Shown: one piece after another, positions 30,804-37,641 of the stretch
Layout: each line of letters opens with the position of its first letter
How positions within the stretch are numbered: position 1 is the stretch's first letter
Origin: Hyphomicrobiales bacterium
GTDB taxonomy: Bacteria > Pseudomonadota > Alphaproteobacteria > Rhizobiales > Rhizobiaceae
DNA: 64,000 nucleotides
Assembly (NCBI GenBank): GCA_900472605.1
Contig: UCJD01000023.1
Span: forward strand, 1 to 64,000
Direction of reading: 5' to 3'
The notes under the pieces: generated by a model
Told to the model about the DNA's origin: nothing
Databases searched by the model: none
What the model saw: the letters and a program-made list of their open reading frames with translations, nothing else
Position numbers and translations under genes: made by a program

Positions 30804-31274
30804 TCAGGCAGCCTTGAAAGAGGCCATGACCTTTTCAGCGGCTTCCTTCGACGGCTTGGCAAGCTTTTCGGCCACCTGCTTGGAGGTTTCCTGCATGGCC
30901 TTGGCCTGTTCGATCGTCAGTTCCGCCTGCTTGCGCAGGAACGAAGTCTGCAGCTCGAAGAATTCGGCGACGGACTTGACCGAAAGAAGCGCATCCATGT
31001 GGCTCAGCGAATTCTCGGCATTGGTGCGCAGCGCGCCGATCGCCTGATGGCCGATCTCGGCAGCGCCGGCCTGGGCCGTCTGCACCGTGGATTCGAGCGT
31101 CTTTCCAGCTTCCTCGCCGGCGGCCTTCATCTTGGCATAGGCGTCGCGCGACTGCTGCGAGCCCTTTTCGGCGAAATCGCGAAACGAGTCAGCGAACTTC
31201 GCGGGGTCAAAAGAGGAGATAGAAAATACGTCTTCCATTTTCGCCATTGGTGCTTGATCCTTCTGTCTCGGCAT
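30804..31274 (-). CDS. Phasin (polyhydroxyalkanoate granule protein)
   Basis: 156-residue phasin-family protein that coats PHB granules. Nearly all is amphipathic helix: SRDAYAKMKAAGEEAGKTLEST near residues 40-62, then GHQAIGALRTNAENSLSHMDALLSVKSVAEFFELQ, the phasin core, near residues 75-109, and KQAELTIEQAKAMQETSKQVAEKL near residues 115-138. The start at 31274 has GAGG at 8 bases; a second Met at 31247 (MAKMEDVF) with AAGGA is also possible and would fit some family members better. It is divergent from the cbrA-like kinase gene. A strong terminator separates it from the tRNA. Confidence 0.9.
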   Translation of the reverse strand: MPRQKDQAPMAKMEDVFSISSFDPAKFADSFRDFAEKGSQQSRDAYAKMKAAGEEAGKTLESTVQTAQAGAAEIGHQAIGALRTNAENSLSHMDALLSVKSVAEFFELQTSFLRKQAELTIEQAKAMQETSKQVAEKLAKPSKEAAEKVMASFKAA

Positions 31275-31460
31275 ATTGAAAGCCTCGTTTGTTAGGTAGC
31301 CATCATATAGCGAATTTTATTGTGCACTGCAACATAATTGTGCGGCGCAACCGACGTTAACCTTTTCGGCCGAAAGCCATTGGTCGCGCTGGACCGGTTT
31401 GCGCCCTGTCGTTATTAATAGACCGTTAATTTGCCAGGCCCGAAGACTAAAGGTCCGCTG

Positions 31461-35468
<4,008 letters not shown>

Positions 35469-35474
35469 GAAAAA

Positions 35475-35494
35475 AGGCAGCCAAGAGGCTGCCT
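35475..35494 (+). terminator. Terminator after the cbrA-like gene
   Basis: Perfect 8-base-pair stem AGGCAGCC / GGCTGCCT with loop AAGA, preceded by an A run (AAAAAA) and seven bases after the stop codon. The T tract after the stem is poor. Confidence 0.7.
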
Positions 35495-35540
35495 GAGAGT
35501 TTGGGTGCTGTTCAACAAGGGCTTAGGCGATCTAACATCA

Positions 35541-35639
35541 TGTTGCGGGAGCAAAGGCCCCAAGCTGCCTCGTTCATATGCAGCCCCAAGTTACATTCAC
35601 CTTTGACAAAGCCTTCTTAACGAAAGGTTTCCCGCAACA
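35541..35639. ncRNA. Candidate structured RNA between cbrA and acetoacetyl-CoA ligase
   Basis: A perfect 10-base inverted repeat TGTTGCGGGA (35541-35550) / TCCCGCAACA (35630-35639) closes a 99-base segment. Read on the minus strand, the motif TTGGGGC occurs twice inside. The segment lies between convergent genes, has no open frame of note and is set off from the cbrA terminator. Strand, transcription and family are unknown. Confidence 0.4.
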
Positions 35640-35688
35640 GGAAGCTCTGGCCGGTCAGATATTGTAGTTTCACTATCATTTTAGGCAT

Positions 35689-37641
35689 TCAGGCGCGCAG
35701 CTCTTCGATTTTAGAAAACAAATCAAGAGCTTCCGGATTGGCGAGCGCCTCCTTGTTCTTCACCGGCCGGCCGTGCACGATCTCGCGAACGGCGAGTTCG
35801 ACGATCTTGCCCGACTTTGTGCGCGGAATATCCGTAACCGCGATGATCTTGGCAGGGACGTGACGTGGCGAGGCGCCGCTGCGGATTCGCGCTTTGATTG
35901 ATCTGACCAGCTCATCGGTCAAGGCAACGCCGGATGCCAGGCGCACAAAGAGAACGACCCTGACATCGTCCTCCCAATCCTGGCCGATGCAGAGCGCTTC
36001 GGTAACCTCAGGCATCTGCTCGACCTGATTGTAGATCTCCGCCGTCCCGATGCGCACGCCGCCGGGATTGAGCGTGGCGTCCGAGCGGCCGTGAATGATG
36101 ATGCCATCATGCTCGGTCCATTCGGCGAAATCGCCGTGGCACCAGATGTTGTCGAAGCGCTCGAAATAGGCGGCGCGGTATTTGGCGCCATCATGATCGT
36201 TCCAGAACATGACCGGCATGGACGGGAATGCCTTCGTGCAGACCAGTTCGCCCTTTTCGCCGCGAACGGGATGGCCGTCGTCGTCCCACACATCCATGGC
36301 AAGGCCGAGGCCGGGCCCCTGGATTTCTCCGCGCCAAACCGGCTGCATGGGATTGCCCAGCACGAAGCAGGAGACGATGTCGGTACCGCCGGAGATGGAG
36401 GCGAGCTGAATGTCCGGCTTGATGCCCTCATAGACGAAGGTGAAGCCTTCGGGCGATAGCGGCGATCCGGTCGAGGTCATCAGCCGCAGGCTCTTGAGAT
36501 CGTGAGAGGTGCGCGGCGTCAGGCCGCTCTTGCGCACCGCATCGATATACTTCGCCGAGGTGCCGAAGACCGCGAACTGCTCGGCCTGCGCATAGTCGAA
36601 CAGCACATTGCCATCGGGCGCGAAGGGCGAGCCGTCGAACAAGCAGAGCGTGGCCCCGACGGCAAGCCCCGATACCAGCCAGTTCCACATCATCCAGCCG
36701 CAAGTGGTGAAATAGAAGAGCTTCTCGCCTTTGCCCAGGCCGCAATGCAGCCGATGTTCCTTGAGGTGTTGCAGCAGCGTGCCGCCGGCCGAATGCACGA
36801 TGCATTTGGGCACGCCGGTCGTGCCCGAGGAAAACAGGATGTAGAGCGGGTGCGAAAACGGCAGGCGCAGGAATTCGACTGGGCGGGCGGGATAGGCGCC
36901 GATGAAGGCGTCAAGCGTTCGGGCGCCTGTTACGGCCCTCGCTACATCATCCGCATCGCCGGCATAGTGCACGACGATGGTGGGAACGCCGAGCCTGGCT
37001 GCGACCGCAGCCACCTTCTCCTTGATTGGCTGCAGCTTGCCGCCATACCAATAGGCATCGCAGGTGACGAACAGCTTCGGCTCGATCTGGCCGAAGCGAT
37101 CGAGCACGCCCTGTTCGCCGAAATCGGGAGAGCAGGACGACCAGATCGCGCCGATCGAGGCGGCCGCGAGCATGAAGGCGACCGTTTCGGGCACGTTCGG
37201 CATCATTGCCGCCACGCGATCTCCAGGCGCGATACCCTCGGCCCGCATTGCCTGCTGCAATCTCGAAACCAGCGCGCGCAGGCGTTCCCAGCTCCAGCGA
37301 TCTTCTGCCTTGTCTTCTCCACGAAAGATGATCGCCTCGGCTGTTCCCTCGCCCGAGAGCAGGTTTTCGGCGAAGTTGAGCGTCGCGTCGGGAAAGAAGC
37401 GGGCCTCCAGCATCACTTCATCGTCGACCAGCACCCGTTCGCCGCGCTCGCCCTTGACTGCGCAAAACTCCCAGGCCGCCGTCCAGAATTTGGCGCGATC
37501 GGCGACCGACCAGGCATGCAGCTCGCCATAAGTGGATAGTGAAAGACCGAAGTCCCGATTGCACCTCTGCATGAATGCGAAGATTGGACTGGCTTCGACC
37601 GAAGCTCGCGAAGGGATCCAGAGTGGCTTATCGTCACGCAT
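35689..37641 (-). CDS. acsA2: Acetoacetate--CoA ligase (acetoacetyl-CoA synthetase)
   Basis: ATP-dependent ligase making acetoacetyl-CoA from acetoacetate in the breakdown of PHB and hydroxybutyrate. It has 650 residues, the family length. Adenylate-forming motifs are visible: [18 protein letters not shown] (near residues 270-287), [13 protein letters not shown] (near residues 405-417), HGDFAEW and [17 protein letters not shown] (near residues 500-525). The catalytic Lys lies in [10 protein letters not shown] near the C-terminus. The N-terminus ([18 protein letters not shown]) is characteristic of acetoacetyl- rather than acetyl-CoA synthetases. The symbol acsA2 follows rhizobial usage. It lies near the phasin gene, consistent with PHB metabolism. 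Confidence 0.93.

Follow-up and report, generated by a model that had tools for sequence, protein, structure and literature searches.

A predicted small RNA family of Rhizobiaceae in the gap between a sensor kinase gene and acsA2

Does the gap between two convergent genes of this Rhizobiaceae genome encode a structured RNA, and if so, which part of the gap is the RNA? The window (the whole stretch of 64,000 nucleotides analysed here) has a perfect 10-bp inverted repeat in this gap, with TGTTGCGGGA at 35541-35550 and its complement at 35630-35639, 79 bases apart. The original prediction was that this helix closes a structured RNA of a family that it did not recognise. The sequence was described accurately: the gap is non-coding and lies between convergent ORFs (ending at 35468 on the plus strand and at 35689 on the minus strand), two copies of TTGGGGC lie inside the repeat on the minus strand, and a search of Rfam 15 found no family at threshold in the gap. 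We also predict a structured RNA on the minus strand, but the 10-bp helix is not what closes it. Overall, we put the probability that this locus is a small RNA (sRNA) gene at roughly 0.93.

The inverted repeat and its neighbours

The gap is flanked by a gene for a sensor histidine kinase and by acsA2, an acetoacetyl-CoA synthetase gene that shares the RNA's strand and lies upstream of it (Table 1). The profile that matched the kinase best was that of the cell-division kinase PdhS, with 998.9 bits, which falls short of the cut-off (2000), and we take CbrA to be its S. meliloti homologue. (Kinases of the PdhS/CbrA type act on CtrA via DivK.) Just past the kinase gene is a phasin gene (30804-31274, minus strand; TIGR01985 above cut-off). 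Genes for phasin (which serves PHB storage), a cell-cycle-type kinase, the sRNA and an acetoacetyl-CoA synthetase are thus direct neighbours.

Table 1. Features of the locus, in window positions
Feature	Position	Strand	Evidence or remark
PAS-domain sensor histidine kinase, CbrA/PdhS-like, flanking gene	31431..35468	+	
Gap between convergent ORFs	35469-35688 (220 bases)		ORFs ending 35468 (+), 35689 (-)
Intrinsic terminator, 8-bp stem 35494-35475 and U-run	35469..35494	-	terminator scan, covariation
Predicted small RNA, ~123 nt	35470..35592	-	conserved block and covariation
Linker, mostly unpaired, proposed pairing region	35496..35547	-	conservation; function inferred
Linker segment TTGTTGAACAGCA	35518-35506	-	
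Linker segment ACATGATGTT	35543-35534	-	
First-noted inverted repeat	35541..35639	none	present in sequence; helix not conserved
Hairpin 2, second TTGGGGC in 5' arm	35548..35561	-	covariation, RNAalifold
Hairpin 1, first TTGGGGC in 5' arm, AUGA in loop	35562..35586	-	covariation, RNAalifold
Weak -10-like hexamer AAAGGT	35599..35604	-	read from sequence
AA-N7-TTAA box, CtrA-like (GAAA-N7-TTAA in window)	35617..35631	-	5' base 39 nt upstream of 35592
Acetoacetate--CoA ligase (acetoacetyl-CoA synthetase, acsA2), flanking, upstream of RNA on same strand	35689..37641	-	TIGR01217 1044.1 bits, cut-off 520.9

In the window, 58 pairs of 10-mers form perfect inverted repeats within 120 nt of each other, as compared to a mean of 19.35 (maximum 24) in 20 Markov-generated windows. 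With 58 such pairs, one like that at 35541-35639 is expected and is no more than chance. We used BLAST to compare the gap to 100 genomes (including its own), and its minus strand was found in 45 of them, all from one genus (Rhizobium). Most matches run from near position 35632 of the window to near 35469, and the sequence upstream of this block drifts. We aligned 45 sequences, one for each matching genome. The window pairs all 10 positions of the closing helix, which also forms without a mismatch when the 99-nt stretch is folded, but the other 44 sequences pair just 1-6 of these positions. The check for compensatory changes that was proposed for this helix instead refuted it: the changes in relatives support a different structure. 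That the structure is closed by this helix is hardly credible, and by comparison of these sequences the helix is an accident of the window's genome.

The repeat also misplaces both ends of the predicted RNA. The arm at 35630-35639 falls before the predicted start of the RNA, where it overlaps the promoter-like box; the other end of the repeat is too short, as about 70 nt of linker and terminator extend past it. The fold of the 99-nt stretch has similar z scores on the minus strand (-2.50) and the plus strand (-2.67), so folding energy alone cannot pick the strand. We rejected a plus-strand RNA, despite its comparable z score, because the terminator is on the minus strand.

Structure and distribution of the predicted RNA

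The conserved block appears to be an sRNA gene with two small hairpins, a linker and an intrinsic terminator. We inferred the 5' end from the conserved AACTTGGGG and placed the 3' end in the U-run. TTGGGGC had been thought of as an unpaired motif, but its copies sit in the 5' arms of the hairpins: the first copy pairs with GCAGCTT in hairpin 1 and the second copy pairs with GCTCC in hairpin 2.

In a MAFFT alignment of 38 Rhizobium sequences (leaving out 7 of the 45 rows, which have an insertion in hairpin 2), two-sided compensatory changes were found in 10 of 21 pairs (39 cells, versus 14.5 in shuffled alignments). The hairpins and terminator were paired in 94.3% of cells, versus 31.7-52.0% for slid versions of the structure. 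RNAalifold, given no structure beforehand, arrived at these helices as well (17 pairs, of which 9 show two-sided changes). When the window's RNA is folded by itself, its lowest-energy structure differs from this one and is long-range. As a consensus, that fold had 72.0% of cells in pairs, a level that 304 of 500 shuffles also reached, and it showed no covariation, so we rejected it as the consensus fold.

A broader alignment of 69 sequences from the family Rhizobiaceae has two-sided changes in 20 of the 21 pairs (218 cells, versus 51.5 shuffled); it was fitted to the structure, so it leans towards that structure, and related rows inflate the counts. This alignment leaves out the seven insertion rows, re-fetched Rhizobium loci, L129, L130, L132 and L147; the acsA-linked weak match L209, along with L207, L213 and L214; and ten close Rhizobium rows (L004, L005, L012, L013, L015, L017, L021, L026, L029 and L043).

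The insertion in the loop of hairpin 2 (L032:252-351 from genome G023, and L033; shorter remnants in L034, L035, L037, L039 and L041) is a palindromic dispersed repeat of about 100 nt. This repeat has at least 43 matches in G023, at least 47 in G038, at least 26 in G012 and at least 17 in G009, and none in the window's genome. It presumably resembles the RIME elements.

The loop of hairpin 1 contains an ATG, which is followed by 21 open codons in the window, and a short protein-coding gene might begin there. Across the 69 sequences, however, the frame is not conserved. It runs from 1 to more than 37 codons with no common length when counting begins at the first ATG within the model region (a different ATG in some rows), and 12 of the 69 have no ATG there. 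We give a protein-coding gene next to no weight.

Within the linker, CATGA is kept in 62 of the 69 family sequences and AGCA in 65. The strict form ACAGCA is present in 42 sequences and missing from 27, and CATGA is missing from seven (L198, L199, L203, L204, L208, L210 and L211), so the region that we propose for pairing varies among the sequences. (In L199, the promoter-like box is kept even though CATGA is not.)

How widespread is this RNA? When named genomes were scanned for a single conserved stretch, 47 contigs matched, all from Rhizobium or "Rhizobiales bacterium," including R. johnstonii 3841, R. mesoamericanum and R. phaseoli. We built a first model on the 38 sequences and a second model (R2) on the 69. 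The first model matched 56 of 60 Rhizobium genomes, including the window's own. (We rejected a 57th match from the same search, in G091, which belongs to another family and lacks both acsA and the box.) Within the family, the first model matched 60 of 297 genomes from 29 of 109 genera; the second model matched 87 of the 297 genomes from up to 36 of the 109 genera, which is an upper bound, as some weak matches are unverified and at least one (L241) is false. We fetched 20 of the 34 weak family matches and inspected their loci. In a large genus (g113), 129 of 146 genomes matched.

In an order-wide draw of 249 genomes, 20 had matches, of which 8 were in the family and 12 were outside it. All 12 of the outside matches look false, as they have no acsA match and no box; 11 of them end on a terminator hairpin, and the other (L229) looks like coding sequence. 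Within the family, we consider L207, L213, L214 and L241 to be false matches. As sampled here, the RNA family thus appears to be confined to Rhizobiaceae. Two assemblies have two strong copies of the sRNA each, namely G034 (contigs C3 and C66; 1% contamination) and G328 (C11 and C16; 9% contamination), and nearly all other genomes have a single copy.

An own promoter or the tail of acsA2

The RNA is nearly always found behind acsA2. An acsA gene is directly upstream on the same strand in all 45 Rhizobium loci and in 19 of the 26 loci L131-L156, and acsA is upstream in 16 of the 20 weaker matches and in 8 of 8 inspected loci from genus g113 (which are flanked by acsA and the kinase, one on each side). 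This synteny supports the model matches within the family as real. It also makes a serious case that the RNA is the 3' UTR of acsA2, that is, a structured tail with the acsA2 terminator, which could act in cis or be cut off as a 3' UTR-derived sRNA. Two observations argue against this. First, after the stop codon of acsA2 the sequence drifts, and a conserved promoter-like block then precedes the RNA. Second, the block and the RNA are found with no acsA match within about 1.5 kb at L140, L143, L152, L154, L199, L237, L239 and L240. (At L133, L137 and L139, the kinase is present and there is no acsA match.) We consider the tail of acsA2 to be an unlikely explanation, and the RNA is probably transcribed from its own promoter.

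What might this promoter be? A scan of 35300-35900 for the sigma-70 consensus found no promoter. There is a weak -10-like hexamer in the window, and some other genera have GATAGT or GATATT near that place. The other feature is the AA-N7-TTAA box, which lies 32-34 nt ahead of the model start. NNAA-N7-TTWR is present in 52 of the 69 rows (2.5 in shuffled rows), TAA-N7-TTAA in 32 (0.19 shuffled) and TTAA-N7-TTAA in 8 (0.04 shuffled); because the rows are related, these comparisons to shuffled rows are not probabilities. As a control, the R2 model does not include the box, yet 7 of 8 further family matches carry it at exactly -33, and it is absent from all 12 of the matches outside the family. The best box is 38-40 nt from the conserved start in 53 of 66 anchored rows (the anchor is missing in 6 of 72 rows), and in the remaining 13 it is elsewhere, in some cases because of a misplaced anchor. 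We also noticed a hairpin in the box region of many Rhizobium, AACCTTTC-GTTAA-GAAAGGTT. It is not kept in other genera, and we read it as a DNA site instead.

The box resembles the binding site of CtrA. The S. meliloti consensus that we used is TAA-N7-TTAAC (PMC3616915), whereas the window's box ends with TTAAG. In Caulobacter, according to PMC4287350, the 5' base of the full CtrA motif (TTAA-N7-TTAA) lies near -35, at -39 at the activated ctrA P2 promoter and at -49 at podJ P1. The same study lists six non-coding RNAs among the promoters with CtrA motifs. Compared by the promoter box only, 52 of our 69 rows agree with this motif in spacing and place, and 8 have it in full; in the window, as in most of the other Rhizobium rows, half of the box is degenerate (GAAA or GCAA). 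Given the half-degenerate box and the lack of a sigma-70 promoter in the scan, we treat CtrA control as a lead only. We would give even odds that the RNA is under CtrA control.

The RNA is also opposite the region 3' of the kinase gene. No plus-strand terminator was found behind the kinase gene in a scan of 35300-35900, so the kinase mRNA may run antisense through the sRNA. This raises the question of whether the locus mainly affects the convergent kinase gene, either as an antisense RNA to its 3' end or as an intergenic terminator element. However, several genera keep the RNA and acsA and have no kinase match in their 3.1-kb loci (for example L131 and L134-L136), and a bare terminator would have no need for covarying hairpins. 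A main effect on the kinase gene is improbable.

Known RNAs and a proposed mode of action

The MmgR/suhB RNA (RF00519) matched below threshold, with 24.6 bits and E = 0.0035 (in a small search). MmgR is another small rhizobial sRNA with a similar terminator, and it has been linked to PHB storage (PMC7143759). The acsA2 and phasin genes are linked to PHB storage as well. A diverged MmgR is nevertheless very improbable: the gathering score is 41 bits, the match covers just the linker and terminator (35460-35529), MmgR is 77 nt rather than about 123 nt, and three copies over threshold are found elsewhere in the genome. (The window's genome, G000, has five MmgR/suhB-like matches, at C45:47105, C58:187324, C58:187537, C58:118441 and C70:89946. 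Three of these are over the Rfam cut-off, and two lie about 210 nt apart on C58.)

Among the described RNAs, EcpR1 (SmelC291) is a trans-acting sRNA of Rhizobiales that acts on the mRNAs of dnaA and gcrA. Like our RNA, it is chromosomal, has stem-loops and a Rho-independent terminator, and lies beside a cell-cycle gene (divK-pleD). But it is at another location, its conserved loop UCCGCCGCAUCU is absent from our RNA, and the Rfam scans show no relation (for EcpR1, we rely on PMC4414408). MH_s16 of Mesorhizobium huakuii 7653R (PMC5596092) is 123 nt by RNA-seq, lies on the minus strand between a plus-strand and a minus-strand gene, and is not in Rfam; it fits in strand, layout and length, by description only, and MH_s11 and MH_s22 fit in mirror image. 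The table of novel ncRNAs in PMC4167512, as far as it was available, has no entry near 747866-747994, which is the RNA's place in G009 (taken for R. etli CFN42). In the accessible parts of the open-access literature we found no description of this gene; the supplementary tables of sRNAs for R. etli (89 ncRNAs) and S. meliloti were outside this search, so it may have been detected before.

How might the RNA act? In our proposal, the cell-cycle regulator CtrA would bind the AA-N7-TTAA box over the -35 region and switch the RNA on. The transcript would start near 35592, its terminal U-run could bind Hfq, and its linker would pair with mRNAs encoded elsewhere. Each of the two linker segments, either in the window or in relatives, has complementarity to a sequence that contains AUG, which would suit the blocking of start regions. 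Base-pairing in trans seems rather more probable than not having this role, and we lean, with modest confidence, towards an independent gene that has its own promoter and acts in trans.

Our searches for targets gave no convincing candidate. Each of eight genomes has a single copy of the complement of TGTTGAACAGCAC, and in six of them it is at the sRNA itself. AACRTCATGTTK occurs at 40 places in the eight genomes, versus 0 for a reversed control, and 30 of these had loci. Of the places, 6 are the sRNA, 7 are antisense to a motif of ABC-transporter ATPases, 5 are at the flgG-flgA junction, and 22 are others. None of the sRNA, ABC-transporter or flgG-flgA places qualifies as a target, and those at flgG-flgA are in the sRNA's own sense. 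When we compared duplex energies of the linker across 45 gene starts in the window, the best had z = -2.1, with -0.9 for acsA2, -0.3 for phasin and -0.1 for the kinase, and we saw no convincing target.

Around the start of flgA, the flgG-flgA junction contains CCGAAACATGACGTT or CCGAAACATGATGTT (L187 near 1501, which is G000:C52:102006; also L165, L166, L167 and L186). In many relatives the sRNA linker has this sequence too, in the same sense, which could be chance or mimicry.

A more ambitious model would be that CtrA drives this sRNA family in Rhizobiaceae, and that the family connects the PdhS/CbrA-DivK-CtrA circuit with carbon storage (acetoacetyl-CoA synthetase and phasin) or with other genes. 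It would do so by pairing, once in every cell cycle, with the start regions of mRNAs encoded at a distance. One of the kinases of that circuit would be the one that adjoins the sRNA in Rhizobium. We offer this model tentatively, as a possibility that we doubt in its full form.

In summary, the conspicuous helix is accidental, and the predicted gene is the quieter sequence next to it. It appears to represent a new sRNA family, ordinary in kind, that matches nothing in Rfam 15 at threshold. If it is transcribed as predicted, then plant symbionts and their relatives have a conserved sRNA family that is missing from Rfam 15, and the RNA is a candidate for a rhizobial sRNA under the cell-cycle master regulator CtrA. 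Should CtrA turn out to drive the RNA, the promoter feature would be truly interesting. If this is true, then the idea that cell-cycle progression sets a post-transcriptional programme in rhizobia would become directly testable.
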